DNA of 56,962 nucleotides from a virus, in the IMG/VR virus record IMGVR_UViG_3300043568_000719, positions 1 to 56,962 of that record; one strand, 5' to 3'. The notes under the pieces were generated by a model. That model was not told the DNA's origin, made no database searches, and saw only the letters and a list, made by a program, of their open reading frames with translations. Below, piece by piece: positions 7,001-29,150 of this stretch (position 1 is its first letter; each line of letters begins with the position of its first letter). The position numbers and the translations under genes are program-made.

Positions 7001-7366
7001 ATGATCAAAGGTTTACAAGGCGTAACAGGCATTACGGTTGGTGGCGGAAATACCGCCCTACCATATGTCGGTCCAAACTCAAGCAACCCAATGACTGGGA
7101 TGATGCGTATCCACAACACCGAACTAGAAGTGTTTAACGGATCAAATTGGCAAATGCTATCTACCAGCTATGCCACAGTAGGCCTAGATCAAGATGTGCT
7201 AGACATTATACAATGGGCTCGTAAAAAACGCCAAGAAGAAAATGATTGGTACAAACTTGCTTCATCTAATGAAGCAGTTCGTATCGCATTAGAACAACTA
7301 GAACAGGCAAAAACAAGATTAGAACTTACAGCAATTTTATCGAGAGAATATGAAACAACCAATTGA
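7001..7366 (+). CDS. Conserved phage protein with fibre-like N-terminal motif
   Basis: It starts two bases after the clamp stop with no Shine-Dalgarno sequence, so it depends on coupled translation. The first half is Gly/Asn-rich and contains GMMRIHNTELEVFNGSNWQ, the kind of short beta unit common at the N-termini of phage fibre and structural proteins. The second half (WARKKRQEENDWYKLASSN onward) is a charged helix, probably coiled coil. The 121-residue product overlaps the DpdA gene by 17 bases. Function unknown; the motif hints at a virion component, though its early-gene position argues for caution. Confidence 0.65.
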   Translation: MIKGLQGVTGITVGGGNTALPYVGPNSSNPMTGMMRIHNTELEVFNGSNWQMLSTSYATVGLDQDVLDIIQWARKKRQEENDWYKLASSNEAVRIALEQLEQAKTRLELTAILSREYETTN

Positions 7367-8960
7367 CCTAACACCTTTACAGAAAGACTATGCTGTGTAT
7401 TTGCCAGCTATCAGTTCTTTCTATTCAACTTATGTTGCAAAACAACGACTAGAAGAATTTGTTTCTAAAGATCGAATTCCTGCGGGATTTGATCGTGGCA
7501 TTGAAGGCATGAACTTCTTAAATGCTGATCAAGGATACTTTACCTACAAGTATGCTCTGTATTCAGCAGGTCACGCACAGTTAGATCTTGAAAAGTCAAT
7601 GACTCAAGAATCAATGATACAAGACCGTGATCGACCTAATACAATGATTTTAGGTGATTCAGGTGGATATCAGATTGGTAAAGGTGTTCTTAAGTTTGAT
7701 TGGTTGAACTTTGAAGGGCCAGAAGCTACTAAGACTCGTCAAAAGATTCTTGAGTGGCTTGAACTTACTGCTGACTGGTCAATGATGTTAGACGTTCCAA
7801 CATGGGCATGTGATCATATTCATTCACCAAAGACTGGATTGAAAACATTCGAAGACTGTCTAGAAAAGACTCGCTACAATAACGATTACTTCTTAATGAA
7901 TCGGTTAGGTCAAACCAAATGGCTTAATGTTCTGCAAGGCGGAGACTGGGATACTGCTGAGAAATGGTATGCTGGCGTTAAAGAGTTTAGCGACCCCAAA
8001 GGCAAGTATGCCGGACGTGAAGCTGAAGGTTGGGCATTTGGTGGTGCTAATATGTGCAAGATGGATATCACCCTCAAACGTCTAATGACTATGCGTGACG
8101 AAGGTATGCTAGACGGCAAGAACTGGATTCACTTCTTGGGTACTGCACAGCTAGACTGGTCATGCTATCTAACACAGATTCAAAGACAAATACGTAAACA
8201 TATCAATCCAGAACTTACTATCAGTTTTGACTGTGCAAGTCCGTTCATTGCCACTGCTCACGGACTTGTCTATACAAATGCACAGCATACCAACAAGCGT
8301 TGGTCAGTGATCATGGATAAGGCTCCGGATAATAAAGCACTTGCTGGGCGTCACGACATTCCGTTTCCTTTTGAAAGTGAGTTTGCAAGTCGATTGACTA
8401 TGGGTGATATTGCCTATTACGATTACGGTGTTCGTAAGACTGATCAAGAATTAGCGGGTAAGAAATTTGATCATCTAAATCCAGAACACTATCATACTGT
8501 GCCCAAACTAAACAAGTTAGGCAAGATTCCGAACAAGACCAGTTGGGATAGTTTCAGCTATGCATTAATGATGGGGCATAATGTTGAATGTCATATCAAG
8601 GCAGTACAACGTGCTCAACAGTTAATGGACATTGAATGTGCAAGATTTAAACCAGACTGGAGAATGAAAAGTATTGAAGGCAAAAAAGAAATTGAATTCA
8701 GTGATTGGGTTCCAAACAAAATTCTTTACTTTGGCACATTCGTTGAAGAACTATTCAATACTAGAACTAAAGCAGAAGCATTTGACATGATTGAGACTGC
8801 TGGACTATTCTTGAAATCGTTAGAAGGTGCTCGACTACAAGGAGGGCCTGCTGCAAATACTTTTGGTAGTTTGTTTGAGTTTGATGATGGTAAAAAAGCT
8901 GGAGAAATTGATTTTGCAAATCCAGATGACGATGACCTAAATAGTCTTGTAGCCGAATAA
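7350..8960 (+). CDS. dpdA: TGT-like DNA 7-deazaguanine transglycosylase (DpdA family)
   Basis: The 536-residue protein carries the tRNA-guanine transglycosylase barrel signatures: LGDSGGYQ (D103) matching the TGT DSGGFQ motif, MLDVP (D148), NVLQGGD (193-199) and WAFGGAN (228-234) matching the TGT QGG and GGL loops, and SFDCASPF (D294) at the position of the nucleophilic Asp. The C-terminal zinc site of tRNA enzymes is not evident and the C-terminus is a different, longer domain. Phage members of this family are the DpdA enzymes that swap guanine in DNA for 7-deazaguanine derivatives. FolE, QueE and a QueD-like gene lie within 10 kb, which supports a DNA rather than tRNA role. The exact base inserted cannot be told from sequence. 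Confidence 0.85.
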   Translation: MKQPIDLTPLQKDYAVYLPAISSFYSTYVAKQRLEEFVSKDRIPAGFDRGIEGMNFLNADQGYFTYKYALYSAGHAQLDLEKSMTQESMIQDRDRPNTMILGDSGGYQIGKGVLKFDWLNFEGPEATKTRQKILEWLELTADWSMMLDVPTWACDHIHSPKTGLKTFEDCLEKTRYNNDYFLMNRLGQTKWLNVLQGGDWDTAEKWYAGVKEFSDPKGKYAGREAEGWAFGGANMCKMDITLKRLMTMRDEGMLDGKNWIHFLGTAQLDWSCYLTQIQRQIRKHINPELTISFDCASPFIATAHGLVYTNAQHTNKRWSVIMDKAPDNKALAGRHDIPFPFESEFASRLTMGDIAYYDYGVRKTDQELAGKKFDHLNPEHYHTVPKLNKLGKIPNKTSWDSFSYALMMGHNVECHIKAVQRAQQLMDIECARFKPDWRMKSIEGKKEIEFSDWVPNKILYFGTFVEELFNTRTKAEAFDMIETAGLFLKSLEGARLQGGPAANTFGSLFEFDDGKKAGEIDFANPDDDDLNSLVAE

Positions 8961-9197: not shown

Positions 9198-9340
9198 AAT
9201 GTAATACATGCGGTCAAGAGGTTTCAACCAACTGCGATTGGCAACAAGGTCGTTGCCCGCATCGAATTCCATTCTTAAATGATTATCATTTTCGATATCT
9301 CAACTTAATTAACTCAATCAAAAACTGGTTTAAACGATGA
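9194..9340 (+). CDS. Mini zinc-ribbon protein (48 aa)
   Basis: This short gene runs from an ATG overlapping the previous stop to TGA 9338-9340, which overlaps the next ATG (ATGA at 9337). The product starts MKCNTCGQEVSTNCDWQQGR and continues CPHR, giving C3, C6, C14 and C21 or H23 as a probable zinc knuckle, followed by an aromatic and basic tail (FRYLNLINSIKNWFKR). Both ends are locked by overlaps, which supports it as a genuine gene despite its size. Such ribbons bind nucleic acid or proteins; the target is unknown. Confidence 0.6.
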   Translation: MKCNTCGQEVSTNCDWQQGRCPHRIPFLNDYHFRYLNLINSIKNWFKR

Positions 9341-9870
9341 AAAGAAATTACGAGTCAGGTGTTACTGATGCTATCACTTTCTTCACTGGGATAGAAATCG
9401 AACATACACCTGCATACGGAATGAAAACGCTGTTTGTTGTCGGGGAACATGATCCGTATGTAATCATGGAACTGGCGAGAAATCATAAATGCGAACATAT
9501 CTACTTCGGAGCTAATCAAAGTTTCAAAACGCTAGGCGTCAATGATTCAGCAACGTGGCGTCCTTGGGAGAATATGATTTATGTATGTCTCGATGCTGAA
9601 GATGGATTTTGGTGTACCTTAGACTTTGATGTTAAAGAAACAGAAGGACTGCTTGAAAGCGGTCTTACAGAAAAGCGTAGATTTATTCCGCAGATCAGTG
9701 TAAAATTACCTTATCTAAATCAACTGGGCTATAATGCTACATTAAAGATAGATGACAAAGATTTTAACGCAAGCAATCCTGGGGTGTGGTGCCATAACCT
9801 GCAGGACCTATTAGGAAGAGATCGCTTCACTAATTGGGATCAATATGGCAAAGATGAGATTATCAAATGA
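9337..9870 (+). CDS. Conserved T4-like phage protein of unknown function (177 aa)
   Basis: It starts MKRNYESGVTDAITFFTGIE and contains a Rossmann-like opening (MKTLFVVGEHD), then HIYFGANQSF, a CTLDFDV strand, FIPQISVKLPYL and a C-terminal NPGVWCHNLQ. The architecture reads as a globular alpha/beta protein with no membrane segment. I recall close relatives in marine T4-like phages but no assigned activity. Overlap with both neighbours by four bases places it in the same coupled run as the zinc-ribbon gene. Function is not inferred. Confidence 0.75.
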   Translation: MKRNYESGVTDAITFFTGIEIEHTPAYGMKTLFVVGEHDPYVIMELARNHKCEHIYFGANQSFKTLGVNDSATWRPWENMIYVCLDAEDGFWCTLDFDVKETEGLLESGLTEKRRFIPQISVKLPYLNQLGYNATLKIDDKDFNASNPGVWCHNLQDLLGRDRFTNWDQYGKDEIIK

Positions 9871-11126: not shown

Positions 11127-12224
11127 ATGGCACGAGTTTTTCTTATTGATCTAGAAGCAGTTGAGACACGTTACACAGGTCAGTGGAAAACTCATGTGCC
11201 TGCGTTACTTAAAAAGGCAGGACACAATGTTCAAATTATATCTGGGCCTGAAGATATTCCTTCAGCCACTACTCCTGGTGCTTTTCTTAATTTTGGTGGC
11301 ACCAATATATACAAGTCTAGTCAAGTTGAGCAGATGGGCCGGTTATTTTGTAACGGAGCCGTTCATCCCGGCGATCACTTTATCTTTACTGATGCTTGGC
11401 ATCCTGGTATCATAAACTTAAAGTACATGAGTGAGTTGTTGGGTATTCCCGTAACTACACATGGCTTATGGCATGCTGGCAGTTATGATCCACAGGACTT
11501 CTTAGGACGTCTTGTTGGAGATAAACCCTGGGTACGTCATGCAGAGAAGAGTTTCTACCACGCTTTTGATCACAACTACTTTGCCACAGACTTTCACATT
11601 CATATGTTTTACGAGAATTTGATTCAACCTGATCCGGATCGTAAAGTAAGTATGTACAAGACTGTATTTGATGATACTTTATTCACCGACAAGGTTGTTC
11701 GCACAGGATGGCCCATGGAGTATATGACTGATACTCTACTCATGTACAAGAATATGCCCAAGCGTGATCTTATCTTGTTCCCGCATCGTATTGCTCCTGA
11801 GAAGCAGGTCGAAATCTTTCGTGACCTAAAACATCATTTGCCTCAATATGAGTTTGTTGTTTGTCAAGATCAACAACTAACAAAAAATGAATACCATAAT
11901 TTACTAGGTGAAGCTAAAATGGTGTTTAGTGCTAACTTACAAGAAACACTAGGCATCAGTTGGTATGAAGGTGCTATAGTAGATGCTATCCCAATGGTTC
12001 CCGATAGACTAAGCTACAGCGAAATGGCGATGGACACATTTAAGTATCCTAGCAAATGGACTGAATCGTTTGACGCTTACACTGTACATCGTCCAGACAT
12101 CTGTAAAACAATTATAGAGCATATGGAAAATTACAGAACTCGTATACCTAGCCTAAATAAACAGGTAGATATACTAAAAGAAAACTTTTTTAGTTGCAAT
12201 AAACTATTAGAGATGTTAAAATAA
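11127..12224 (+). CDS. GT-B fold glycosyltransferase (GT4-like)
   Basis: The 365-residue protein begins with a Rossmann strand (ARVFLIDLEAVE) and a long N-terminal domain containing FLNFGGTN and FTDAWHPG. The C-terminal domain has the GT4-type elements LILFPHRIAPEKQVEIFRD, a strand YEFVVCQDQQ, and NLQETLGISWYEGAIVDAIPMVPD with an E-x7-E spacing (E in QET and E in YEG) that contacts the nucleotide sugar in that family. It lies among base-modification genes, between the QueD-like gene and folE, so DNA or modified-base glycosylation is possible, while a sugar for virion or cell-surface use is the alternative. Donor and acceptor cannot be inferred. Confidence 0.75.
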   Translation: MARVFLIDLEAVETRYTGQWKTHVPALLKKAGHNVQIISGPEDIPSATTPGAFLNFGGTNIYKSSQVEQMGRLFCNGAVHPGDHFIFTDAWHPGIINLKYMSELLGIPVTTHGLWHAGSYDPQDFLGRLVGDKPWVRHAEKSFYHAFDHNYFATDFHIHMFYENLIQPDPDRKVSMYKTVFDDTLFTDKVVRTGWPMEYMTDTLLMYKNMPKRDLILFPHRIAPEKQVEIFRDLKHHLPQYEFVVCQDQQLTKNEYHNLLGEAKMVFSANLQETLGISWYEGAIVDAIPMVPDRLSYSEMAMDTFKYPSKWTESFDAYTVHRPDICKTIIEHMENYRTRIPSLNKQVDILKENFFSCNKLLEMLK

Positions 12225-12266: not shown

Positions 12267-13013
12267 TTGACAGATAAAAAAGAAACAGGCCTAGACGCAA
12301 TGGCAGGCGATGGCGGATATCAAGAAGCATACCTAGGCGATCACATCCGCTTTAAAATGAAACGTGAGGGCAAACGTTTCTGGGCAGGTGACAACATTAG
12401 TGATTACCTGCACGAAGGCGACATAGAAAAACTAATCGACGAAGCAACTCCTGCATTTGAACAAGTGCTAGATAGTTTGCTTATTGATCGTGAAAACGAT
12501 CCCAACAGTAAAGGTACTGCAAGACGACTTGCCAAGATGTACTTTAATGAAATTATGGCAGGTAGATATGAAACAGCACCAGACGCAACAGCATTTCCAA
12601 ACGACTCACAAGACCGATACGAAGGTATGCTGGTGGTACGTAGTGAGTTGCGCTCTATGTGCTCTCATCATCATCAGCCCGTTAGTGGTGTCGCTTACAT
12701 TGGTATCATCGCCGCACAAAAACTTATCGGTCTTAGCAAGTACACTCGTATTGCTCAGTGGTGTGCTCGTCGCGGTACCTTACAAGAAGAACTCTGCAAC
12801 GACATCGCCAGAGAAATAATGAAGGCTACAGATAGCGAGAATGTAGCTGTCTATGTTCAAGCTATTCACGGATGCTGTGAGAATCGGGGCATTATGGCAC
12901 ACAGTTCGTTGACTCAAACAACAGTACTCAAAGGTACATTCAAAGACGACCCTCATACAAAGAAAGAGTTCTTTGATAACATTAAACTACAACAAGAGTT
13001 TGCTCCGAGGTAA
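12267..13013 (+). CDS. folE: GTP cyclohydrolase I (FolE)
   Basis: FolE turns GTP into dihydroneopterin triphosphate, the first step to folate and to 7-deazaguanines. The product has the zinc and active-site motifs MCSHHHQP (C132, H135) and AIHGCCENRG (C203), plus GVAYIGI and a GLSKYTRIAQWCARR helix, all in family order; 248 residues is somewhat longer than bacterial FolE because of an N-terminal extension. TTG 12267 is the likely start since GGAG lies nine bases before it; the first ATG (12300) has no such site. The enzyme would feed the QueD-like protein and QueE encoded nearby. All key residues are present. Confidence 0.92.
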   Translation: MTDKKETGLDAMAGDGGYQEAYLGDHIRFKMKREGKRFWAGDNISDYLHEGDIEKLIDEATPAFEQVLDSLLIDRENDPNSKGTARRLAKMYFNEIMAGRYETAPDATAFPNDSQDRYEGMLVVRSELRSMCSHHHQPVSGVAYIGIIAAQKLIGLSKYTRIAQWCARRGTLQEELCNDIAREIMKATDSENVAVYVQAIHGCCENRGIMAHSSLTQTTVLKGTFKDDPHTKKEFFDNIKLQQEFAPR

Positions 13014-13527: not shown

Positions 13528-13721
13528 TTGATAAAACTCCCTGGGATCGATTGAAAGAGCAATTTAAACCAGATGGCAAAGGTAGATTTAAAACTACTGA
13601 TGCTATGAAGATTGCTGTTCAAATAGATAATGAGAGAATCCAATTAGAGAAAAAGGTGTGGGGATTAAATAAAGAAATAGAAGCATATAAGTCTCATCTA
13701 CGGGCAGTGACAAAACAATGA
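13524..13721 (+). CDS. Small coiled-coil protein (65 aa)
   Basis: The start overlaps the previous stop (ATGA). After a short MIDKTPWDRLKEQFKPDG lead, the rest is a continuous charged helix (IAVQIDNERIQLEKKVWGLN and KEIEAYKSHL) with heptad-like hydrophobic spacing. It likely dimerises. Nothing more can be inferred; it lies directly before the DNA glycosylase gene and overlaps it by four bases. Confidence 0.55.
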   Translation: MIDKTPWDRLKEQFKPDGKGRFKTTDAMKIAVQIDNERIQLEKKVWGLNKEIEAYKSHLRAVTKQ

Positions 13722-14137
13722 TTAAACCCCTACGTGATGACCTAATGGTGCAACAGCAAGTAGATGATGCCTGGCAGCATTTCGTTGGTGTGATTATGCT
13801 GAACCAAACTGGTCGAAAAGCTGTAAAGACCACACTACCCGAATTCCTATATTGGTTTCCCACAGCGTTGGCACTGCTACACGCAGAAGAAGAGTTTGTC
13901 AAAAGCATAATCCAGCCCTTGGGAATGCTGAATGTTCGTTATAATCGATTGATTAGAATGAGTCAAGACTACTTGACTTGGGACGGAAATGATGCTACAA
14001 TGTTATATGGCATTGGAAAGTACGGCAGCGACAGCTATGAAATTTTTTACAAGAACAATTATAGTGTAGAGCCTACTGATAAAGAACTGATAAGATACCT
14101 CAAGGAAGAAGTTAATAATGTTTTTGAAACTGCTTGA
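13718..14137 (+). CDS. MBD4-like HhH-GPD DNA glycosylase
   Basis: The 139-residue product matches the glycosylase domain of the MBD4 type: an N-terminal helix with IMLNQTGRKAV (compare I-F-L-N-R-T-S-G-K), a PLGMLNVRYNRLIRMSQDYL helix (compare P-L-G-L-Y-D-L-R-A), the helix-hairpin-helix LYGIGKYGSDSYEIF, and the catalytic Asp (D121) in PTDKELIRYL (compare the P-E-D-H-K-L-N-K-Y segment). No lysine at the endonuclease III position is seen, so it should be a monofunctional base-removing enzyme. MBD4 removes T or U from G mismatches. Here it could repair deaminated bases or act on unmodified or foreign DNA; the real substrate is unknown. Confidence 0.82.
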   Translation: MIKPLRDDLMVQQQVDDAWQHFVGVIMLNQTGRKAVKTTLPEFLYWFPTALALLHAEEEFVKSIIQPLGMLNVRYNRLIRMSQDYLTWDGNDATMLYGIGKYGSDSYEIFYKNNYSVEPTDKELIRYLKEEVNNVFETA

Positions 14138-14585
14138 ACGTCTAGGTCGCAAACGTATCATTTTTGATCGGGTGAATAACGAACCGTATCTCGAACGCTA
14201 TTATCTGTTTCTTAAAGAAAGAAATCGTTTTCCATTCAACATATTTTTACATAAATTTCTTAAAGGTGATCCCGACGATGTTCACGATCATCCGTGGCCG
14301 TATGCTACACTAATATTGAAAGGTGGGTACTATGAATATACTCCTAGTTTCGAAAATGGCAAGATGGTTGGAGAAACAAAGCATTGGCGGGGTCCTGGTC
14401 ACTTCCGCATTTGTAGTTCTAATAGCTATCATCGTATCGAACTTAAACCTGGAGTAACTGCTTGGACTCTATTCATGCCAGGCCCTCACAAACGTGAATG
14501 GGGATTTTTAGTCAACAACAAATGGATACAACACGAACAATATCTCAAGGATAGAAATGAACAAACTCAAAATCAACCAGCATGA
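14118..14585 (+). CDS. Cupin-fold metal-binding protein
   Basis: It overlaps the glycosylase gene by 20 bases and has AAGGAAGAAG before its ATG. The 155-residue product has the cupin pattern: FNIFLHKFLKGDPDDVHDHPW, with a likely metal pair H56 and H58, then YATLILKGGYYEYTP, the second motif GHFRICSSNSYHRIELKPG (His near 105), and TAWTLFMPGPHKREWGF. This resembles small cysteine-dioxygenase-like cupins in phages, but no substrate is known. The metal site appears intact. It may be an enzyme or a sugar- or metabolite-binding protein. It is coupled to the phosphoribosyltransferase gene downstream by a 29-base overlap. Confidence 0.7.
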   Translation: MFLKLLERLGRKRIIFDRVNNEPYLERYYLFLKERNRFPFNIFLHKFLKGDPDDVHDHPWPYATLILKGGYYEYTPSFENGKMVGETKHWRGPGHFRICSSNSYHRIELKPGVTAWTLFMPGPHKREWGFLVNNKWIQHEQYLKDRNEQTQNQPA

Positions 14586-15096
14586 AGTAAACGGATTAGT
14601 CGGCAAAATCTGTAGAGAACTTGCTACAGGAACGTGGAGACCCGATTATATTGTAGGTATTACTCGAGGCGGATTGATTCCTGCTGTTATGATCAGTCAG
14701 TATTTTAATATTCCATTACATACATTGAACGTAAGTTTACGTGACAGTGAGATTGGGCCTGAAAGCAATCTGTGGATGGCTGAAGATGCACTAGGCCCAC
14801 TATCCAAGGATCGTGCAGTTGATAGCGATACTACTTTTAAAAACATTTTGATTGTGGATGATATCAACGATCAAGGTACCACACTTAACTGGATCATGCA
14901 GGATTGGCCTAGTGGTTGCTTTCCAGACGATCCGGCCTGGGAAGAAGTATGGAACAATAATGTTAAATTTGCTGTATTGGTAGATAATCTTGCCAGCAAG
15001 TGTAATGTTAAAATGGATTATATTGGCATGGAAGTCAACAAAGCCGAAAACGATGTGTGGATTGATTTTCCTTGGGAAGATTGGTGGACTAAATGA
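14557..15096 (+). CDS. Type I phosphoribosyltransferase
   Basis: The 179-residue protein shows the PRPP-binding motif ILIVDDINDQGTT (about 98-110) and the PPi loop YIVGITRGGLIPAV (about 31-44), as in xanthine, hypoxanthine and guanine phosphoribosyltransferases. It would make a nucleotide from a free base and PRPP. The Trp-rich C-terminus (FPWEDWWTK) resembles the hood of xanthine-guanine enzymes. A purine or deazapurine base is the likely substrate, which would fit salvage of guanine released by DpdA exchange or by DNA breakdown; that is inference. AAGGAT precedes the ATG. Confidence 0.85.
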   Translation: MNKLKINQHEVNGLVGKICRELATGTWRPDYIVGITRGGLIPAVMISQYFNIPLHTLNVSLRDSEIGPESNLWMAEDALGPLSKDRAVDSDTTFKNILIVDDINDQGTTLNWIMQDWPSGCFPDDPAWEEVWNNNVKFAVLVDNLASKCNVKMDYIGMEVNKAENDVWIDFPWEDWWTK

Positions 15097-15320
15097 TTGA
15101 TTCGAAAATCAAAGTACATTGTACAGATGCAGGCAAAGATTTTGACATGCATGTACTAGGTTACAAGCCTAAAGCATTTTTAGAAGTTGCATTTCAAACA
15201 ATTAAATTGCGACTGGTCTATACAGAACGCACACGAGCATTTGTCGGTAGTCTAGGTGGACGTGAATTTGTCATTCGTGAAGATGCATTGCCTACAGAAA
15301 GAAAGGAATATCAACGATGA
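15093..15320 (+). CDS. Conserved small hypothetical protein (75 aa)
   Basis: A compact beta-rich protein: IKVHCTDAGKDFDMHVLGYK, then KAFLEVAFQTIKLRLVY and RTRAFVGSLGGREFVIRED. It contains one Cys and no membrane span. As I recall, relatives occur in marine T4-like phages next to HIT-family genes, as here. ATGA overlaps couple it to the phosphoribosyltransferase gene before and the HIT gene after. Function unknown. Confidence 0.6.
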   Translation: MIDSKIKVHCTDAGKDFDMHVLGYKPKAFLEVAFQTIKLRLVYTERTRAFVGSLGGREFVIREDALPTERKEYQR

Positions 15321-15694
15321 ACCTACACTATTCATTAGATGATGCACGAGATGCAGGTCAGGCACCATGGGACGATGTTGTACAAGATGATTTTCATGTT
15401 GCTATTTTTAAAGACAAGTATCCTGTAACAGAAGGACACTTGTTGTTTGTGCCTAAATACTCAGCTGTAGGTGTTATCGAAGATTGTTTTGCTGATGCAC
15501 TTAGACTTGGTCAAGAAAAGGTCAACAGTGGTGAGTGGGACGGATTCAATATCGGTATGAATTGGGGGGAAGCAGCAGGGCAAACTGTTCCGTATCCCCA
15601 TGTTCATTTGATTCCCAGACGCAAAGGTGATATGGAAGACCCCACAGGCGGTGTTCGCCACGTGATTCCGGAAAAGGGTAACTACAGAAAATGA
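15317..15694 (+). CDS. HIT-family protein with incomplete His triad
   Basis: The 125-residue product has the HIT fold layout: VAIFKDKYPVTEGHLLFVPK (strand, then P-V-x-x-G-H-x-L-x-x-P), a helix around FADALRLGQEK, and GQTVPYPHVHLIPRRKGD. In the family the triad is H-x-H-x-H; here it reads Y93-x-H95-x-H97, so the first His is Tyr while the central catalytic His is kept. HIT enzymes cleave nucleotide phosphoramidates, dinucleoside polyphosphates or similar. Activity is likely but specificity unknown. It is coupled to genes on both sides by four-base overlaps. Confidence 0.88.
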   Translation: MNLHYSLDDARDAGQAPWDDVVQDDFHVAIFKDKYPVTEGHLLFVPKYSAVGVIEDCFADALRLGQEKVNSGEWDGFNIGMNWGEAAGQTVPYPHVHLIPRRKGDMEDPTGGVRHVIPEKGNYRK

Positions 15695-16294: not shown

Positions 16295-17543
16295 TACTAA
16301 AGGCTCATGGCCATTTGCTCCGAGCGATGTTCCGGAGCCAACTGCTGAAGAACTTGAAACACAGCGTCTAGCAGAACAGCAAAAACTTATTGAAGTTCTT
16401 AAATTCACACCACGCACATACAAAATTAGTATGTGGGGCTACGGTGGCGAAAAGGTTATGGGCACAGTAGACAAAAAGATTTGGGACTATTGTAATGATA
16501 ATCAAGTCGACTTATCTGAAATTGCTTGGAGTGATGAAGATACTGTACAAGAAGAAATGGGGCTTGACCTAGACATGCTGCCATTTACACCAGGCTCGTG
16601 GTACGAGTGTGACGACATGGGACACATCAATGGTGTGAGTCGCGATGCAGGCACACTTCAAATCGAAGACGAAAATGGTAACACAGTACTGGAACGCTCT
16701 CTAGATAGTATCGACGGAACAGACATCGGTCTGTGTTGCAGTGACGAAGTATGGGCAGGATCAAAGCCCAAAGGCACAGTAGTGTTCATTGGTAGCAGTA
16801 ATGAAAAAGGCACATTCTTTGAAGGCGAAATTGAACTTCGTGCACCTTTTGATATTGAAAAATTAGAATTAAACTACGATGAGTTCGATGGTGAAGATAT
16901 TATTACCAGCGTAACCTACGACGGTGAGGATATTGACAACTGGGGCGGCAGCACAGACGGCAAGAGTTCAGACATGAACATGGTTTTGATTACAGACGAC
17001 CAAGGCAATTGGGAACGCTATTCTCCAGAAGAAAAAGATTGGGGTCATCCTCCAATAGGAACAAGTCCAAGTGACTGGGAAAAGTCACCTAAGTTCAAGT
17101 TTGCCAAAGTTAAACCTACTGTGGAAGGTTGGTATAGTGCAGTGTGGCGCAACTTCGGAACTACCTACGGTACATTATATTGGAACGGTACAGAATTCGG
17201 CGAATGGGAATACGGACAGTTCAAACCGCAGTCAGGAGTTGATACTTGGCAGGGATATAACTGGGACACTGGTTCATGGGTTAATCAGCCACCAGAGCCA
17301 GTAGACGCACAATGCAGTGATAAGAAATGCGGGTGGACTGGTATGCGTAGCGATATGCGTGAAGATGACGACTATAACAATCATTGTCCGTTGTGTGATG
17401 GCACAGAATTTGAATGGATTGACTATGATCCAGACACCAAAGAAGGTCGTGCCAATCGTAAAAAGTATTGCAAAGAATGGGATCCAGCTGTGTCAATGGA
17501 CCGAATTGTCAAAGCATTTCCGAATACAGAGGAAAATAAATGA
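16281..17543 (+). CDS. Acidic zinc-finger-containing phage protein of unknown function (420 aa)
   Basis: The protein is rich in Asp, Glu, Gly and Trp. After a polar start (GSWPFAPSDVPEPT) a KISMWGYGGEKVMGT region begins a series of beta-rich segments, including PFTPGSWYECDDMGHINGV and GWYSAVWRNFGTTYGTLYW, which reads as repeated strands. Near residues 345-380 CSDKKCGWTG and HCPLCDGTEF give two Cys pairs forming a likely zinc ribbon. The final part is charged. I do not recognise a family. It begins at the expected start point of the 16247 promoter, has no Shine-Dalgarno sequence, and overlaps queE by four bases. Confidence 0.65.
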   Translation: MTTTNTKGSWPFAPSDVPEPTAEELETQRLAEQQKLIEVLKFTPRTYKISMWGYGGEKVMGTVDKKIWDYCNDNQVDLSEIAWSDEDTVQEEMGLDLDMLPFTPGSWYECDDMGHINGVSRDAGTLQIEDENGNTVLERSLDSIDGTDIGLCCSDEVWAGSKPKGTVVFIGSSNEKGTFFEGEIELRAPFDIEKLELNYDEFDGEDIITSVTYDGEDIDNWGGSTDGKSSDMNMVLITDDQGNWERYSPEEKDWGHPPIGTSPSDWEKSPKFKFAKVKPTVEGWYSAVWRNFGTTYGTLYWNGTEFGEWEYGQFKPQSGVDTWQGYNWDTGSWVNQPPEPVDAQCSDKKCGWTGMRSDMREDDDYNNHCPLCDGTEFEWIDYDPDTKEGRANRKKYCKEWDPAVSMDRIVKAFPNTEENK

Positions 17544-18403
17544 GTAAAATTAAAATAGCAGAGCTGTTCTACAGCATACAAGGCGAAGGACGTTATATGG
17601 GTGTTCCTTCTGTTTTCTTGCGTACATTTGGGTGTAACTTCAAGTGTGCTGGCTTTGGCATGCCTCGTGGTGAAATCAGTCACGAGGCTACTGACATTGC
17701 GGCCACACACTCAATGATCGAATCATTTCAAACGTATGAAGAACTTCCGTTAGTTAGCACAGGCTGTGACAGCTATGCATCATGGATGCCAGAGTTTAAA
17801 GATCTTAGTCCGATGCTTACTTCAGATGCAATAGCAGAACGTATCATGGAAATCTTACCTTACAAGCGTTGGGAAGACGAACATCTTGTTATTACAGGCG
17901 GCGAACCGTTACTAGGTTGGCAACGTGCTTATCCAGATCTGTTGAATCATCCGAGCATGACAGGTCTTAAAGAAATTACGTTTGAAACAAACGGTACTCA
18001 GAAACTCACACCAGAGTTTAAAACATTCTTACAAGAGTGGAACCAGAATCCTCCATTTGTTTCTAGAGAAGTTACATTTTCAGTCAGTGCCAAACTCAGC
18101 TGTTCAGGCGAAGAAAGGCACGAAGCGATAAAGCCAGATGTTGTTTGTGAATATCAAGAAGTTGGTAATACCTATCTTAAGTTAGTTATTGCTACAGAAG
18201 AAGATGCTGAAGAAGCTCTAGAAACTCTAGATATATATCGAGCAGAAGGATTCACCGGACATTGTTATCTCATGCCTGTGGGCGGAGTTGAATCAGTGTA
18301 CACGCTAAATAACCGTCGTGTAGCAGAATTAGCAATGAAACACGGACTTAGGTACAGTGATAGACTACAAGTGCCGTTATTTAAAAATGAGTGGGGAACA
18401 TAA
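17540..18403 (+). CDS. queE: 7-carboxy-7-deazaguanine synthase (QueE), radical SAM
   Basis: QueE makes 7-carboxy-7-deazaguanine from carboxytetrahydropterin using SAM and a 4Fe-4S cluster. The start AELFYSIQGEGRYMGVPSVF matches the QueE opening, followed by LRTFGCNFKC (C32, C36), the ITGGEP motif near 120 and ETNGT near 155. In ordinary QueE the third cluster Cys follows at once as W-C-D-T. Here that place is G-F, and a likely replacement Cys (C76 in STGCDSYASW) comes about 38 residues later, as if a loop were inserted. The protein is 287 residues, longer than usual. It is coupled to genes on both sides and supplies the precursor for DpdA. Confidence 0.9.
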   Translation: MSKIKIAELFYSIQGEGRYMGVPSVFLRTFGCNFKCAGFGMPRGEISHEATDIAATHSMIESFQTYEELPLVSTGCDSYASWMPEFKDLSPMLTSDAIAERIMEILPYKRWEDEHLVITGGEPLLGWQRAYPDLLNHPSMTGLKEITFETNGTQKLTPEFKTFLQEWNQNPPFVSREVTFSVSAKLSCSGEERHEAIKPDVVCEYQEVGNTYLKLVIATEEDAEEALETLDIYRAEGFTGHCYLMPVGGVESVYTLNNRRVAELAMKHGLRYSDRLQVPLFKNEWGT

Positions 18404-22521: not shown

Positions 22522-22819
22522 TCCTTTGTTCAAACCTCCTCGACATCTTGTAAAAGAATGGCCAGAGGTTTTTGAAGATCTTTATATGAATACCATGCCT
22601 GTGGCCTATCTGGATTCCGTGAGATTAGATTTCACAGATGGCCGGGTATGGGAAATCGATGTAAAGAATGAACTCACCAAACAGACTGCTGACGGCATCG
22701 CTGATGTGTTGATCAGTACTCTTCAAGAATACAAAGACGAAATTAAAAAAATAGATTTCAAAGTTGATGTAGAAAGACTTAAAAAAGACATCAGAGATTC
22801 GTCAAAAAACATTTTTTAA
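22514..22819 (+). CDS. Conserved phage protein (101 aa), last rightward gene
   Basis: ATG 22514 is preferred over TTG 22511. The product starts MPNPLFKPPRHLVKEWPEVF and contains MNTMPVAYLDSVRLDFTDGR, VWEIDVKNELTKQT and a C-terminal helical, charged part IKKIDFKVDVERLKKDIRD. Soluble and small. As I recall, relatives lie near head or tail genes in T4-like marine phages, but no function is assigned. Its TAA overlaps the stop of the convergent gene on the other strand (22816), so the two transcription units meet end to end. Confidence 0.7.
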   Translation: MPNPLFKPPRHLVKEWPEVFEDLYMNTMPVAYLDSVRLDFTDGRVWEIDVKNELTKQTADGIADVLISTLQEYKDEIKKIDFKVDVERLKKDIRDSSKNIF

Positions 22820-23613
22820 GTAATATTCTCTGCTATAAGGTCAGCCATTTGTTTGGCTGATCCCTTTCCTGGGTGTATTAAATCTCGAGCTTGATTGTCA
22901 ATAGACACCCAATCACTTTCTGTATAATGTGCTGTGGCTTCAAAAAAACTTGCAGAATAGTATCTACATTTGTTTTTCCAAAACTCTCTACTAGACATAC
23001 TTGTGTAGGCAGCAGTGAGCATTGATTGATATGGATTCATAACTATACTCTCGGAAAAATGTTCGCTGTCCCAAGGACCTATGTGTTCGATATCTTGTTT
23101 ATTGAATACTGTGAATCTATCGATGTTTGTCCATAAATGTATCACAGCATAAGGTGTTGTAAAATTCTTAGCCAGCAACATAGAATTTATAAAAGAGTGT
23201 TGCATTGATGACGCACTGACTCCCATGTTTATCACCGGTCTGTTTAATATAGTCGACAGCTGGTAAGAAATTGTTTCATCCTCAGCCAGGCCAACGCCAA
23301 CAGTGCATGAACATCCAAATATAACCACTGCATTGGGCCAATCGATTGTGTCCCACTCGTCCGCTCTATATCCATTAGAATTACAATTATATCTAACATC
23401 CTTAGTTCTATAGTGCCAATCAGATGGCTGCGTTTTGAGATTCTGCTTAAGAAGATCAGGCGAGTCACTTGATGAAAACTTATCAGAAAGCGGCGTCGGA
23501 ATGTCAAAAGTTTTTAAGACGGTATAATCAAGATGTGTTAACAAATTTGCTTTGAGGAAAGGATATTTGAGAAAATATTCAGGATATTTTTCTGCACCGC
23601 TCCAGTTATACAT
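22816..23613 (-). CDS. SGNH-hydrolase-like protein (265 aa)
   Basis: The product has block I of the SGNH family as VVIFGCSCTVGVGLAED (Ser 102 in the G-C-S position), a following RPVINMGVSASSMQHSF stretch with Gly and Ser as in block II, a TPYAVIHLWTNIDRF segment in the region of the Asn block, and RDLIHPGKGSAKQM near the C-terminus like block V with its Asp and His. SGNH enzymes are esterases or acyltransferases acting on sugars and lipids. Here it would add or remove an acyl group on a sugar made by the operon; this is inferred from context. It is the last gene of the leftward operon. Confidence 0.65.
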   Translation of the reverse strand: MYNWSGAEKYPEYFLKYPFLKANLLTHLDYTVLKTFDIPTPLSDKFSSSDSPDLLKQNLKTQPSDWHYRTKDVRYNCNSNGYRADEWDTIDWPNAVVIFGCSCTVGVGLAEDETISYQLSTILNRPVINMGVSASSMQHSFINSMLLAKNFTTPYAVIHLWTNIDRFTVFNKQDIEHIGPWDSEHFSESIVMNPYQSMLTAAYTSMSSREFWKNKCRYYSASFFEATAHYTESDWVSIDNQARDLIHPGKGSAKQMADLIAENIT

Positions 23614-23614
23614 T

Positions 23615-24655
23615 TCAAGCTCCTATAATAAACTTATGTAGTTCGTGGGCAAACAAATCATGCCCCTTGGCACTGGGGTGGCAACACACTGTTACCCAAT
23701 GATTAGGTGTGCCTTTACCGTTGAAATCCCAGAATCCCACGTTCTTTATTCCTTCTTGGTTAAGGCATAAATCTATAAAGGTTGGGCAGTCTTGAGGCTT
23801 AAACATTTTATCCCACGGCCATTGATTTACAATAGCGTCAAGAGTTTGTTCTTTGTTTTTATCAAGAATCTGCATGCTGGCTGTGTGTTCAACATGCTTG
23901 GTTATTTTTTGATTCTCGTCACGAACAATATTCCAACGAATCATATTTTTAAAATCAGTTTGAGTATATGTTCTATCGAAACCAGGAGTAATAATTAATT
24001 TTGCGTTTTTTAACTTACACCAGTTCTCTAATTCAATGACATTAGATATTTGTTCTAACATGCTGGATTTTTCGCTGTGTACTGCGGTACCATATCCTTT
24101 CCACAATGTTTTACGCGGACTGTCTGGTTGATCTTCGTGCCACGGCCACATACAATGAAACTTGGCGATCTCATTACTGTCGTTACCCAACTCATCACTA
24201 AGGAAATCAAAACGCTCAGGGCCGCTTGGCACATAGATTACAACAAGTTCATCAATGTTATGCCAGTCTATCTGAGGATGAAAGTATAGACTCTTAATAG
24301 ATGCTCTATTACCTTTGCCTTTGAGTCCAAAATTGATAGCGGTATACTCGGAATTAAAATATTTTTTACAAAGCACATTCACAAATGCATTTTTATGTTG
24401 CATAAATGTCCAATCAATGTTACCCTTGTTATCAATTCTTAATTCTTTGTGTGCTAACAACAGCTTGGATTTTTCTGCGTCTGTTAGAATAGGTTCCATA
24501 GGAACGCCTGTCTTTAGCATAGACCAATCATGTGTTTCATAGATATCTTGATCTATCGCCCCCTGGCCTTCTACAAATGAACAGCCTAAACTAATTATAG
24601 CTTTTCGTGTTCTTTTCAACTCACTGTTTATTGCGGCAATCTCGATGTTATGCAT
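23615..24655 (-). CDS. SGNH-hydrolase-like protein (346 aa)
   Basis: ATG 24655 is preferred to the one at 24673 because GGGAG lies six bases upstream. Block I appears as AIISLGCSFVEGQGA (Ser 26), and the C-terminus has CCHPSAKGHDLFAHELH, matching the H-P block that carries the catalytic His. A strand LVVIYVPSGPERFDF lies in between. The protein is longer than its neighbour at 22816 and the two are only distantly alike. The likely role is ester chemistry on a glycan. It overlaps the upstream gene by eight bases. Confidence 0.6.
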   Translation of the reverse strand: MHNIEIAAINSELKRTRKAIISLGCSFVEGQGAIDQDIYETHDWSMLKTGVPMEPILTDAEKSKLLLAHKELRIDNKGNIDWTFMQHKNAFVNVLCKKYFNSEYTAINFGLKGKGNRASIKSLYFHPQIDWHNIDELVVIYVPSGPERFDFLSDELGNDSNEIAKFHCMWPWHEDQPDSPRKTLWKGYGTAVHSEKSSMLEQISNVIELENWCKLKNAKLIITPGFDRTYTQTDFKNMIRWNIVRDENQKITKHVEHTASMQILDKNKEQTLDAIVNQWPWDKMFKPQDCPTFIDLCLNQEGIKNVGFWDFNGKGTPNHWVTVCCHPSAKGHDLFAHELHKFIIGA

Positions 24656-25985
24656 GCGCGACTCCCGAAACATAATTCCTCAGCGTTTCAATTGCTTTAG
24701 GCATATTAACTGTGGAATTGTCACTGAGTACTTTGAAATTGTGATCAAGAATATCTTTCATTGAAATAAACCATTGAATCTTTTTTTCATTTGACATAGC
24801 TCTGATATCTTTGAGTATTTGAATAATTGCATCTAATCTATCCCACGACTCTAACTCGTCGTATGATTCATCTATAAATCCATGAAACGTTTTATATCCC
24901 AACTCTCTGAGATATCGTAGACTGTGTTTGTTACCGTACATTATAAACGGATGCCTTGTGGCAATAGGTTTAAAAGTTTTTTCACTGATAAAGCAGGTAT
25001 TCTCAGCAAACGATGCTTCACTGACAACACTTACCCATGTGTCTAATGTGGCTTGATGGTTCAAGTCGTGTTCAAATAAATTACCCAGTGGTCCTTCAAA
25101 CCCATTTTTTTCTGTTTCTTTAAGATTACTTCTAGGATACATAGGCAACATATGCTTATAAGAATTGTACACATCCTGATCTAACATCCGTCCATCATAA
25201 AATCCTTTGTGGAATGTAAAAGCATTCATGCTGTTGATCCCATCATCAAGTAATCCATTTTTATACAGACTATCAAATAGCCAGATACGATGGGGTCTGG
25301 ATCTTTTTTGAAATGCGTTATACAACTTGATATCATTGATATTTTTTGTTTTATAGGCAATTTGTTTTTCCGACGAAGGCAACAGATACCGCTGATTGCT
25401 TGCACATTCATGAATGTATTTTTCAAAATGAATATAGGGAATTACGCACATCTTATCATTGATTTGTCGATTCAAACACCATTCGTCGTATTGTTGAGCC
25501 ACCGCAAGATTCCCTGTGACATATATAACCCTGCTGGCGCTTATTTCATACTGAGCACATCCAGCATGAAACCAATCAAATAGCCAATCTGTATGATATC
25601 CCTCGTGCGATTGATCAAGCAATAAGTAACAGTGTTTCTTACGCAGAGCCGATAGTTGTTTCGTGTCTAAAAATGCAAACACAGACTTGCGGTGTGATAT
25701 GTTTGAATCATAATCGTTGTTAAGATCGGCCGACCCGCACCAATCCCAGGGAGCATGTGCTACTCCAGTTGGTATTATATAATTCGCATATGATTTTCTA
25801 TTACTCCATTGATCAAATGTCACTGTGTCTGCATCTAATTGATCGGCATACAGGCGTTGAGTTTTGATTCGAGACAGCACTGTGGCCAATGGACTGGGTG
25901 GGAATTTACGGATGTTGGAAGTATTTCTTTCCTCACATGCAGTGATATTCAGTAATTCATCGACGTTTTCAAAAATAAAATTCAT
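24648..25985 (-). CDS. Putative glycosyltransferase-like protein (445 aa)
   Basis: I do not have a firm family for this protein. The N-terminal half contains CYLLLDQSHEGYHTDWLFDW and SRVIYVTGNLAVAQQYDEWC, like a Rossmann-type domain. The C-terminal half has SVVSEASFAENTCFISEKTF followed by KPIATRHPFIMYGNKHSLRY and LRELGYKTFHGFIDESYDEL. The S-E-K-[T]-x-x-P pattern followed by hPF and a Leu-Gly-Tyr strand is reminiscent of GT10-type or other GT-B acceptor-side motifs. Context among sugar genes supports that guess. It overlaps both neighbours by four to eight bases. Confidence 0.5.
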   Translation of the reverse strand: MNFIFENVDELLNITACEERNTSNIRKFPPSPLATVLSRIKTQRLYADQLDADTVTFDQWSNRKSYANYIIPTGVAHAPWDWCGSADLNNDYDSNISHRKSVFAFLDTKQLSALRKKHCYLLLDQSHEGYHTDWLFDWFHAGCAQYEISASRVIYVTGNLAVAQQYDEWCLNRQINDKMCVIPYIHFEKYIHECASNQRYLLPSSEKQIAYKTKNINDIKLYNAFQKRSRPHRIWLFDSLYKNGLLDDGINSMNAFTFHKGFYDGRMLDQDVYNSYKHMLPMYPRSNLKETEKNGFEGPLGNLFEHDLNHQATLDTWVSVVSEASFAENTCFISEKTFKPIATRHPFIMYGNKHSLRYLRELGYKTFHGFIDESYDELESWDRLDAIIQILKDIRAMSNEKKIQWFISMKDILDHNFKVLSDNSTVNMPKAIETLRNYVSGVAHA

Positions 25986-26770
25986 GTCCTATTCCATTGT
26001 TCTACATTAGTTCCATTGGCAACACTGCGACGAGCAATTAGTTTTTGTATTTCAACGTCATCTTTCTGTTGATCTGTAGGTGCAAATAAAGCTCTACTTC
26101 TAGGGTCAACATTAATTGGAGGATCTGTCAAATAATACATAGCGATACTGTTTCTTGTGATGCCAGTTGGAGATTTCACGGCAGAAGTTAATCCGTGCCA
26201 TGTACTTTGTGTAGTATCAAATATCACTGCTCTGTTAAACATAGGCGACACTGTTTGAAATATAGTAGTAGGACCACTGCTATCCGAATTCCAGATTCCG
26301 AAATCTCCGCCCCATTCTGTTTGCCATTGAGGAGTAAGATATATTATTAAATTATATTTACGCTGGAGATGAAGCTTGGGATGAATGCTGTAATCCAGAT
26401 GAGGATTTAATTTTCCTCCTTGCGGATAACAGTGAAGACCACCGCCATGTAGCCCCGGATCTGTATATAAATTCGCAGTCCCAGTTAACCCAATGAGCAT
26501 ATCTGTAAATTGTTTGGAGTTCAAACAATATAACAATTGATATATGCTTTGGGGAAATCTATCCCAGATGTTGCATGTACGTTTAAGTTCAATCTGGTTA
26601 TTGTATGTACCGTTATACATTCCGGACTCGTAGGCAGGAAAATCTTCTGCAATTTTAGCTGCAACAGATTCCTGTAAAAAATTATCAATAACACAATGCG
26701 AATACGCACTGTGATTGAAACTGCCAAAGGCAGTTTCTACGTTTTCTAAATTAATTAAATCACTAACCAT
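25982..26770 (-). CDS. 2-oxoglutarate/Fe(II)-dependent oxygenase (prolyl-hydroxylase-like)
   Basis: The 262-residue protein has the iron-binding facial triad: H124-L-D126 in NPHLDYSIHP and H192 in TTQSTWHGL, with R206 after it in GITRNSIAMYY as the likely 2-oxoglutarate anchor. Preceding strands GGGLHCYPQGG and YNLIIYLTPQW match the double-stranded beta-helix of the PF13640-type enzymes. These hydroxylate proteins or small molecules. The target is probably a sugar or a virion protein. All metal ligands are present. It shares a 16-base overlap with the dehydratase gene upstream. Confidence 0.82.
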   Translation of the reverse strand: MVSDLINLENVETAFGSFNHSAYSHCVIDNFLQESVAAKIAEDFPAYESGMYNGTYNNQIELKRTCNIWDRFPQSIYQLLYCLNSKQFTDMLIGLTGTANLYTDPGLHGGGLHCYPQGGKLNPHLDYSIHPKLHLQRKYNLIIYLTPQWQTEWGGDFGIWNSDSSGPTTIFQTVSPMFNRAVIFDTTQSTWHGLTSAVKSPTGITRNSIAMYYLTDPPINVDPRSRALFAPTDQQKDDVEIQKLIARRSVANGTNVEQWNRT

Positions 26771-27780
26771 CTGTCATTCTTTAAAGTCCAGTGTATAGAT
26801 TCTTCCAATCGTTGATACACTGGTTGTGGGACCCATCCCATATCTTTCATTTTACTGCCGTCAAGTGCATACCGTAAATCATGCCCCGGACGCTGACTAT
26901 GAAAATCTAACATTTCGTAATTCAAAGATTTACCTTGAACATCAGCAATATATTGTGCAAGTTCTAAATTGTCAATCTCTGTCGATCCTACGATATTAAA
27001 CTTTTGACATTTTGCACCTCCAGGATCTGCTGGTAGTTTAGATAGATCTTGTTTGTATAGAAATAATAATGCATCTGCTACATCCCTGGCATGTATATAA
27101 TGTCGCGACCCTGCTTTGGTTTTTTCCGGGTTCGAATGGATGGAAATTTTTTGATTATCTCTTACACGTTTTATACAAAGCGGAATATATTTTTCTGGGT
27201 GTTGCCTTTCTCCGAACACATTCATAGTGTGTGTAATTATTGCAGGTAATTTATATGTGTTTTCATATGCCACAACAAATTCTTCTGCGGCGGCCTTGCT
27301 GGCGCTGTATGGATTAGTTGAGTTGTATCGGTCATTTTCTTTATAATTAATTCCGTGGGGTGCAGGGCCAAAGACTTCGTCTGTGGAAAAATAAACGAAC
27401 AAATCTAAACTATCTAAGTTGCGAGCGTAATCCATTAAATTTACAGTTCCAACTACGTTGTCCTGCACAAATTCCATAGGGTATGTAATTGAACGATCAA
27501 CATGACTGCCGGCTGCAAGGTGTGCGATGATATCTACTTTGCCTATCATTGATCTAATTTGTGGATTCAATTCTGCTTTTAAATCATGATGCACCACACG
27601 CACTCTCTTGCGTACTGCTTCAGGATAACTAGAGACTACTTCATGCAATCTATTCAAATTACCACTGTAATCCAATCTATCTAAAGTTACAATTCTCCAA
27701 TCAGTTTCAGATAAAAGTTTATCAATTAGATGATGAGCAATAAACCCTGCTCCGCCGGTGATTAATATTGTTTTGCTCAT
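26755..27780 (-). CDS. NAD-dependent nucleotide-sugar 4,6-dehydratase/epimerase (RmlB-like)
   Basis: The 341-residue product is an extended short-chain dehydrogenase. It has the nucleotide-binding ITGGAGFIAHH (GGAGFI at 9-14), DIIAHLAAGSHVDRS, the active-site FSTDEVFGP with D134-E135 as in dTDP-glucose 4,6-dehydratase, and NPYSASKAAAEE with Y158 and K162. The R-x-Y-I-H-A-R-D-V-A-D segment toward the C-terminus is also typical. The T-D-E signature favours a 4,6-dehydratase over a simple epimerase. It would make a 4-keto-6-deoxy sugar nucleotide for the glycosyltransferases in this operon. Confidence 0.88.
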   Translation of the reverse strand: MSKTILITGGAGFIAHHLIDKLLSETDWRIVTLDRLDYSGNLNRLHEVVSSYPEAVRKRVRVVHHDLKAELNPQIRSMIGKVDIIAHLAAGSHVDRSITYPMEFVQDNVVGTVNLMDYARNLDSLDLFVYFSTDEVFGPAPHGINYKENDRYNSTNPYSASKAAAEEFVVAYENTYKLPAIITHTMNVFGERQHPEKYIPLCIKRVRDNQKISIHSNPEKTKAGSRHYIHARDVADALLFLYKQDLSKLPADPGGAKCQKFNIVGSTEIDNLELAQYIADVQGKSLNYEMLDFHSQRPGHDLRYALDGSKMKDMGWVPQPVYQRLEESIHWTLKNDRWLVI

Positions 27781-29150
27781 TATACTGTCTCCTTGCAGTC
27801 TTTATAGAAATTAGCCAATTCTGGAAATGTATTTACAAAATTGGTGCCACGACGTTTGTCATATTCTGTAAACCAATTAAAGAAGTCTCTACGCCCCTCT
27901 TTTACTTTATCTGGGGTATAGATAGCTGATTCCATGTATTTTACCACTCTTTCAAATTTAGCATACTCTAAGTCGTTGAATTTACTACGGTTTTTATCGT
28001 CTAAATTGGCTAGAATGAAGTCTAGGTGTCGGATCATGTAAGGCATAAACTGGTCTTTAGGCAGAATATTCATGTCGTACTGTAAAGGTTCTTTTAAGTA
28101 GGGCGTATCAAAGCGTATACGCTGCCATTTATTTTGATCAACACCATTATATTTCTCACGCCATTCTAAAATCTTTTCTAATAGACTTTGGAAGTTGGTT
28201 ACTGTTAGAATATTAAAAGTACACATAAATGTAATCGGTAACTGTGTTTGAGTTAGGTACGTATCTAAGTTACGTTCCCATACAGTTAAATCCAATCCTG
28301 TACGAATATATTCAGCAGGTGTGCCCCAAGTGTCCATACTGGTAAAAATTTTAAAATCTTTAATACAGCCTTTGGCAATTAGACTGTTTACCTTTTCTAC
28401 AAGTCGATCTATAAGGATAGGTTTAACTCCAAAATTAGTATTGATGTTTAATTCAAGATCAGGTAAAGGATTAACCAATAGATCATCTAACAATTTCCAT
28501 GTGCTAGATTGTAATAATGGTTCACCCCCTGTTATACGCAAGATAGTTAATGTCTTACGAACTTCAGGCCACCAACGCCACCATGCTTCTACATACGGAT
28601 TGGTTTCTTCTTCGTAAATTTGAAACCAGTCAATGTCGTTGCGATGATTCTTAACCATGTCGTACGGGCCATAATCTTTGATCTCTTTGTAGTAAGCACT
28701 GCTGTGTTTAGGATGGCAGTATCCGCATTTAAAATTGCATTCATTACCGAAACTAACTTCGATATATTGCGGATTTATATTTTGATCCCAATCGCCATCT
28801 TTGATCTGTTGGAATCTTTTATCTGTGTAGATAGTCGAGTTGCGTTCTTTGCGATCACTGACATAGTCGTTTCCCATGTCTTCGATATTCCAGCAATAAT
28901 TACAACCGCTGGGCTTTCCACCGTTGAGCATTTCTAGTCGTTCGTGTTTCTTTTGGTTTGTGTTATGTAATGCACTTGCATCTATAACAATCTCATCTAA
29001 AGGAATTTTATGAGGAGCGGGATGATAACAGCTGTGTGTTTCACCCGACTGAAGATATATCGTAGTGTGGTGCCACTTGGCCATGCAAAAAGTTGGCGAT
29101 ATCTCATTCATTATAGGAATAAATTTTTTAATTCTTGCTATATCGTCCAT
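27780..29150 (-). CDS. Radical SAM protein with extra N-terminal Cys cluster (456 aa)
   Basis: ATG 29150 has AAGGAA eight bases upstream and is preferred over the longer in-frame start at 29174. The SAM-binding cluster motif is NECNFKCGYCHPK (C138, C142, C145), followed by RITGGEPLLQSSTW. Before it lie four more cysteines, C22 in FCMAKW, C41 in SCYHPAPH, and C83 and C86 in GCNYCW, a layout I associate with twitch-type radical SAM proteins that bind an auxiliary cluster. The substrate is unknown. Context suggests sugar or peptide modification. The IscA-like carrier at 867 may help mature it. Confidence 0.88.
   Translation of the reverse strand: MDDIARIKKFIPIMNEISPTFCMAKWHHTTIYLQSGETHSCYHPAPHKIPLDEIVIDASALHNTNQKKHERLEMLNGGKPSGCNYCWNIEDMGNDYVSDRKERNSTIYTDKRFQQIKDGDWDQNINPQYIEVSFGNECNFKCGYCHPKHSSAYYKEIKDYGPYDMVKNHRNDIDWFQIYEEETNPYVEAWWRWWPEVRKTLTILRITGGEPLLQSSTWKLLDDLLVNPLPDLELNINTNFGVKPILIDRLVEKVNSLIAKGCIKDFKIFTSMDTWGTPAEYIRTGLDLTVWERNLDTYLTQTQLPITFMCTFNILTVTNFQSLLEKILEWREKYNGVDQNKWQRIRFDTPYLKEPLQYDMNILPKDQFMPYMIRHLDFILANLDDKNRSKFNDLEYAKFERVVKYMESAIYTPDKVKEGRRDFFNWFTEYDKRRGTNFVNTFPELANFYKDCKETV

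Follow-up and report, generated by a model that had tools for sequence, protein, structure and literature searches.

We assign the open reading frame at positions 13,718–14,137 (+ strand) of a viral DNA stretch of 56,962 nucleotides (IMG/VR record IMGVR_UViG_3300043568_000719; "the window" below always means this whole stretch) to the MBD4-type HhH DNA glycosylases, the family of the animal protein MBD4, which excises mispaired thymine or uracil. The protein, here termed MBD4L, is a single domain of 139 amino acids read from ATG to stop, contains no cysteine and is encoded inside a dense cluster of co-directional genes. The enzyme type as such is known; what is new is this widespread viral form of it. 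Computation establishes which family and fold it belongs to, its catalytic residues, its genomic context and the purifying selection acting on it. We further consider it reasonably probable that MBD4L, as a monofunctional pyrimidine-DNA glycosylase of the MBD4 type, initiates base excision repair in the chemically modified genome of the phage itself during infection. The original prediction for this gene was correct in its identification at the family level, and it over-read both the mismatch specificity and an attack on host DNA.

Family assignment and active-site residues

HhH-GPD was the one domain found in the 139 residues of MBD4L (Pfam, 7.4e-7, above the gathering score), the methyl-CpG-binding domain of full MBD4 being absent, and no PHROG family covers the protein. 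When all PDB chains were searched with phmmer, 15 distinct MBD4 chains headed the list (6e-18 to 3.4e-16), with no better than 0.25 for MutY, the family ranking second. With an AlphaFold (AF2) model built from 50 homologues (pLDDT 94, pTM 0.88), the top 16 Foldseek matches in the PDB were all MBD4 (TM 0.81–0.86), followed by MutY (6e-4) and, near 7e-3, by endonuclease III and MIG. In a maximum-likelihood tree, the phage proteins together with human and mouse MBD4 form a group that excludes Nth, MutY and MIG (support 99/97), and the clade of MBD4 and phage proteins received 96/97 in a tree computed without the long MutY branch. Vertebrate MBD4 was nested in the phage family in the first tree; for nested versus sister placement in the tree without MutY, the AU test gave p = 0.239, and the trees are compatible with either. 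The claim of an MBD4-like glycosylase is thus borne out by the PDB search, the predicted fold and the tree, and the profile search and phylogeny against MBD4, MIG and MutY that had been suggested as a check returned MBD4 as the best match and the MBD4 clade as the placement. Identification as endonuclease III, MutY or MIG is ruled out by the tree, the residues and the absence of cysteines. Relative to its relatives, MBD4L has dN/dS values of 0.012–0.11 (pairs with computable dS) and is under strong purifying selection.

The HhH motif LYGIGKYGSDSYEIF (14,003–14,047, + strand; residues 96–110) and the catalytic aspartate, both named by the original prediction, are in place. D121 (14,078–14,080, + strand) corresponds to the catalytic D560 of human MBD4 (hMBD4) and lies in VEPTDKEL, which aligns with VHPEDHKL of hMBD4. 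Y102 (14,021–14,023, + strand), the equivalent of hMBD4 Y540, occupies the position of the AP-lyase Lys of endonuclease III, for which E. coli Nth has GVGRK in the alignment; thus, rather than falling within endonuclease III and carrying that Lys, MBD4L lies on the MBD4 side of the tree with Tyr in its place. Both residues are invariant in 55 homologues spanning about 25–99% identity. The C-terminal 4Fe-4S cysteines that are a feature of endonuclease III, MutY and MIG are missing, and since there is no cysteine anywhere in the protein, MBD4L is without an FeS cluster. L466, L506 and R512 of hMBD4 are kept as L28, L68 and R74 (numbering and residue roles of hMBD4 according to PMC12073362), and Q12 (13,751–13,753, + strand) is the probable counterpart of Q449, which reads O2/N3 of the flipped T (PMC12073362); the latter assignment derives from an alignment by eye in which the loop is one residue shorter.

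At two positions MBD4L departs from hMBD4. The human enzyme depends on the arginine finger R468 to act on T:G, and its R468Q and R468L variants lose all or nearly all activity (PMC12073362). In the alignment, Q30 of MBD4L (13,805–13,807, + strand) takes this position, and Arg is not conserved there anywhere in the phage family: Gln is found in the window's clade, Leu in S-TIM54, AXL_1 and the loci L089 and L091, and Met in locus L087. Endonuclease III and MutY also have Gln at this position. The counterpart of K562, a phosphate contact in hMBD4 (PMC12073362), is Glu. Because R468 is replaced by Gln, or by Leu or Met in other members, strict T:G specificity of MBD4L cannot be assumed; judged by its residues, the chemistry would be that of the MBD4 domain, and the T:G pair must be recognised differently or less strongly. 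MBD4L is placed here as a variant within the MBD4 fold family, as its residues suggest, and not as a bona fide T:G-specific MBD4. The specificity implied by the label "mismatch-type" is weakened by the Gln in place of the arginine finger.

Compared with the vertebrate MBD4 (MED1) domain, MBD4L shares fold, size, lack of an FeS cluster, the Y540/D560 equivalents, the GIGKYGxDSY motif and the clade; unlike it, MBD4L is viral, lacks the methyl-CpG-binding domain and the long N-terminus, and carries the exchanges at R468 and K562. The archaeal MIG thymine glycosylase and MutY have the HhH-GPD fold and the catalytic Asp in common with MBD4L, MIG also having GVGKY, but both contain an FeS cluster, lie on the other side of the tree and gave weak or no phmmer matches in the PDB.

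Gene neighbourhood in the window's lineage

The statement that this phage seems to modify its DNA is well grounded by gene content, as the window encodes FolE, a QueE-like enzyme and a TGT-fold protein, and QueD is found in longer relatives only. FolE (GTP cyclohydrolase I, step one of the 7-deazaguanine pathway; 12,267–13,013, + strand; Pfam PF01227, 3.8e-40) is the usual upstream neighbour; in 107 loci it lies no more than 6 kb away from MBD4L. The radical SAM enzyme resembling QueE (7-carboxy-7-deazaguanine synthase; 17,540–18,403, + strand; phrog_2076, 1e-51) carries an insertion of about 50 residues after the first cysteine region, the NCBIfam QueE models covering residues 4–37 and 90–285. 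The 536-aa DpdA-like protein (7,350–8,960, + strand) is a candidate DNA guanine transglycosylase according to predicted fold and motifs, with the TGT fold and the catalytic aspartates in place: GDSGG(Y/F)Q and FDCASPF are invariant, and all 35 Foldseek matches at E ≤ 1e-3 of its model, which is of moderate confidence (pLDDT 67), are TGTs. It had no match in Pfam, PHROGs, NCBIfam or, by HMMER, the PDB, and may belong to a divergent group of such transglycosylases carried by large phages.

Three further genes on the + strand accompany MBD4L: a cupin/cysteine-dioxygenase-like gene that overlaps its 3' end (14,118–14,585; phrog_4786, 5e-39; near MBD4L in 103 loci), a gene for a phosphoribosyltransferase-domain protein (14,557–15,096; Pfam PF00156, 1.5e-13; 101 loci) and one for a HIT-domain hydrolase (15,317–15,694; Pfam PF01230, 9.8e-11; 108 loci). 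The usual order is dpdA-like gene, an ORF of the type found at 9,337, an ORF of the type found at 11,127, folE, small ORFs, MBD4L, cupin, phosphoribosyltransferase, HIT, queE and 5'-3' exonuclease. The ORF at 9,337–9,870 encodes a conserved 177-aa protein regularly found near the dpdA-like gene and folE, for which the profile search yielded only designed "Cake" proteins, and these weakly, and the 365-aa protein of 11,127–12,224, present in about 100 loci of the modification cluster, appears glycosyltransferase-like by eye and had no database match; profiles of the two gave no convincing match in the PDB. Elsewhere in the window, a block on the − strand (22,816–33,391) holds glycosyltransferase-like, NAD-epimerase-like and radical-SAM genes, possibly for surface sugar synthesis, and a small ORF at 867–1,193 resembles, by eye, ErpA/SufA-like iron-sulfur carriers, with a relative also in locus L089.

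The linkage between MBD4L and modification genes is common, not fixed. Among 133 labelled loci, a set in which near relatives are over-represented, 118 include one or more of folE, queE and dpdA, and the modification-gene label changes nine times on the MBD4L gene tree, some of the "absences" being fragments. The occurrence of MBD4L in members of the same lineage that lack DpdA (genomes G009, G010 and G013) is weakened as an argument, G009 and G010 being fragments with QueD. QueC or Gat-QueC gave weak partial matches in G001, G005 and G007 only. UvdE is encoded in 7 of the 13 carrier records; QueD and UvdE are adjacent in G009 (locus L179) and G010 and lie about 3 kb apart or less in G002 and G005, and in G009 a gene for an Fe/Mn superoxide dismutase (SOD) sits beside the pair. 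No C5-methyltransferase gene (PF00145) was found in the window's lineage and no thymidylate synthase (TS)-family gene (PF00303) in G001–G010, and the lone TS of G013 is of the normal dUMP type (GVPFN). 5-Methylcytosine was rejected for this lineage, given that these searches returned neither a C5-methyltransferase nor a TS with the switch to Asp.

Relatives in other phages and in cellular genomes

The family is widespread in water phages and undescribed; our literature search retrieved no paper describing an MBD4-type enzyme in phages, and existing annotations of its members read hypothetical, ENDO3c or endonuclease III. One scan of viral stretches identified at least 372 relatives, and at least 576 were identified with a profile, on viral metagenome contigs reaching 364 kb. 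Among 50,697 phage records, 8 carried a relative, corresponding to five distinct phages: S-TIM54, AXL_1, DoCa6, YB23 and Donnerlittchen. Cellular relatives are very rare: 7 loci emerged from a scan covering 84,980 species, several of them resembling phage DNA binned into MAGs, the plasmid collection contained no relative, and among sampled genomes of two phyla (398 and 396) the query genome itself was the sole match, apart from endonuclease III at 6.5e-15. At L087 (8,001–8,387), an MBD4-type gene lies amid ordinary chromosomal genes of Candidatus Actinomarina (MAG contig).

A modification cluster of the 7-deazaguanine type does surround MBD4L, but a specific connection with deazaguanine is weakened, since members of the family also occur in the complete genomes of S-TIM54, AXL_1 and Donnerlittchen, where DpdA, QueC and QueD are absent. 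These three phages, unrelated to the window's lineage, have a TS-family protein with Asp at the position of Asn177 of dUMP-specific TS, like the dCMP hydroxymethylase gp42 of T4. The ENDO3c or "endonuclease III" genes of the Bradleyvirinae (AXL_1 gp65, DoCa6, YB23, Donnerlittchen) are MBD4-type as well, with Tyr and Asp kept and placement in the same clade (AXL_1 gp65 matches MBD4 at 1.1e-13), but they differ from the window protein in sharing only 25–26% identity with it; in AXL_1 and Donnerlittchen the gene directly precedes those for a pyrophosphohydrolase, the dCMP-type TS, dCMP deaminase and DHFR, in surroundings free of 7-deazaguanine genes. The S-TIM54 hypothetical protein UYE97365.1, also MBD4-type, is 47% identical to MBD4L over the alignment and differs in the Leu at the R468 position and in its genome, which has the dCMP-type TS, an annotated alpha-GT and a C5-MTase-like gene, and no DpdA.

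In the sections of the AXL1 report considered here, the phage DNA is described as resisting 26 of 31 restriction enzymes, much like that of Xp12, in which 5-methylcytosine (5mC) replaces all C, and these sections do not discuss the ENDO3c gene in the light of modification (PMC9206674). An MBD4-type enzyme makes direct sense in such phages, because deaminated 5mC is a T opposite G and as such invisible to a uracil glycosylase. For S-TIM54 and Donnerlittchen, DNA modification is suggested by gene content alone. The gene is optional: a related TS occurs in 65 records, and an MBD4L relative in only 4 distinct Bradleyvirinae. Genes annotated as thymidylate synthase in L083 (16,400–17,338), L084 (21,211–22,047) and L188 (45,397–46,236) show the dCMP-type N-to-D switch; they probably encode dCMP methylases or hydroxymethylases.

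Proposed function and its implications

For the repair function favored above, MBD4L would flip out U or T, or a 5-substituted U, opposite G, and would read the base via Y102 and probably Q12; D121 would then activate a water molecule, leaving an abasic site. Enzymes of the UVDE family could nick at abasic sites, such that the phage-encoded UvdE of the relatives, or else a host AP endonuclease, may take over at this stage, and phage PolB and ligase may complete the repair. The benefit would arise because host repair copes poorly with deaminated cytosine or 5-modified cytosine in modified DNA. We count in favor of this reading that MBD4 is the best match by sequence, predicted fold and tree, that D121 and Y102 are invariant, that dN/dS is low, that UvdE is encoded by 7 of 13 carriers, that AXL_1, Donnerlittchen and S-TIM54 have a dCMP-type TS and that AXL1 DNA withstands restriction much as Xp12 DNA does, so that deamination there would yield T:G, the substrate of MBD4. 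No gene of the UDG superfamily was found in the 13 carrier records, so these phages have no further gene for a known uracil or thymine glycosylase. The replacements of R468 and K562 count against the repair reading. As no gene for 5-modified cytosine was found in the window's lineage, the deamination argument is not directly transferable to the window phage, and its benefit would be less direct since its modified base would be a guanine; our guess is that it gains from repair of plain cytosine deamination, or that host repair is poor on 7-deazaguanine DNA.

The main rival to repair of U or T opposite G is that the substrate of this MBD4-fold glycosylase has shifted, for example to uracil irrespective of its partner or to a pyrimidine that is oxidised, alkylated or derived from UV damage, as might follow from loss of the arginine finger that senses G. 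We regard this as possible, if clearly short of probable: position 468 is Gln, Leu or Met throughout the family, endonuclease III and MutY share the Gln, and the UvdE and SOD genes of relatives suggest a general defence against DNA damage, but the retained equivalents of Y540, D560, L466, L506 and R512 leave the pyrimidine pocket and the opposite-base contact looking intact. The same loss, together with the Glu at K562, could be taken to indicate an MBD4 derivative that binds DNA or senses mismatches and has little catalytic power, a reading that the invariance of D121 and Y102 over such a wide range of identity and the strong purifying selection make highly improbable.

Gene context invites two other interpretations. 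MBD4L might be a working part of the 7-deazaguanine system that removes a wrong or intermediate base or creates an abasic site for modification or editing, in line with the presence of folE, queE or dpdA on most labelled loci (the sample biased to near relatives) and with the conserved order folE-MBD4L-cupin-PRTase-HIT-queE. This appears unlikely to us, as the family exists without QueC, QueD and DpdA in the complete S-TIM54, AXL_1 and Donnerlittchen genomes and on the chromosomal contig of Ca. Actinomarina, the modification label switches repeatedly on the gene tree, and the pocket has the residues of an enzyme acting on pyrimidines. The location beside a modification pathway would also suit an enzyme directed against unmodified DNA of the host or of competing phages, comparable to a restriction glycosylase or to the reverse of Brig1, and both base-excising restriction enzymes (PMC10273834) and the defence glycosylase Brig1 (PMC11078745) do exist; we give this very little credence, given that the single 139-aa domain leaves no target-recognition domain, that PADLOC returned no match, that the nearest relatives are mismatch-repair enzymes and that Brig1 belongs to the unrelated UDG superfamily. 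A host-attack or defence role was rejected on the grounds of the missing PADLOC match and recognition domain, and neither the attack on host DNA nor the removal of unmodified bases, both raised by the original prediction, found positive support.

Returning to repair of the phage's own genome, a broader picture can be drawn in which base-replacing phages carry a dedicated MBD4-type repair glycosylase that maintains the modified genome; at least three phage groups unrelated to one another would have acquired it, the MBD4 domain of vertebrates would derive from this largely viral family, and in the window's lineage the enzyme would have become tuned, by arginine-finger loss, to mismatches opposite 7-deazaguanine. 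Taken as a whole, we hold this combination to be rather doubtful. If MBD4L is active, phages with altered bases would bring along their own mismatch-type base excision repair, and the protein would offer a simple, single-domain MBD4 devoid of the arginine finger for probing T:G recognition. The family also enlarges the pool of sequences for the question of where eukaryotic MBD4 originated.
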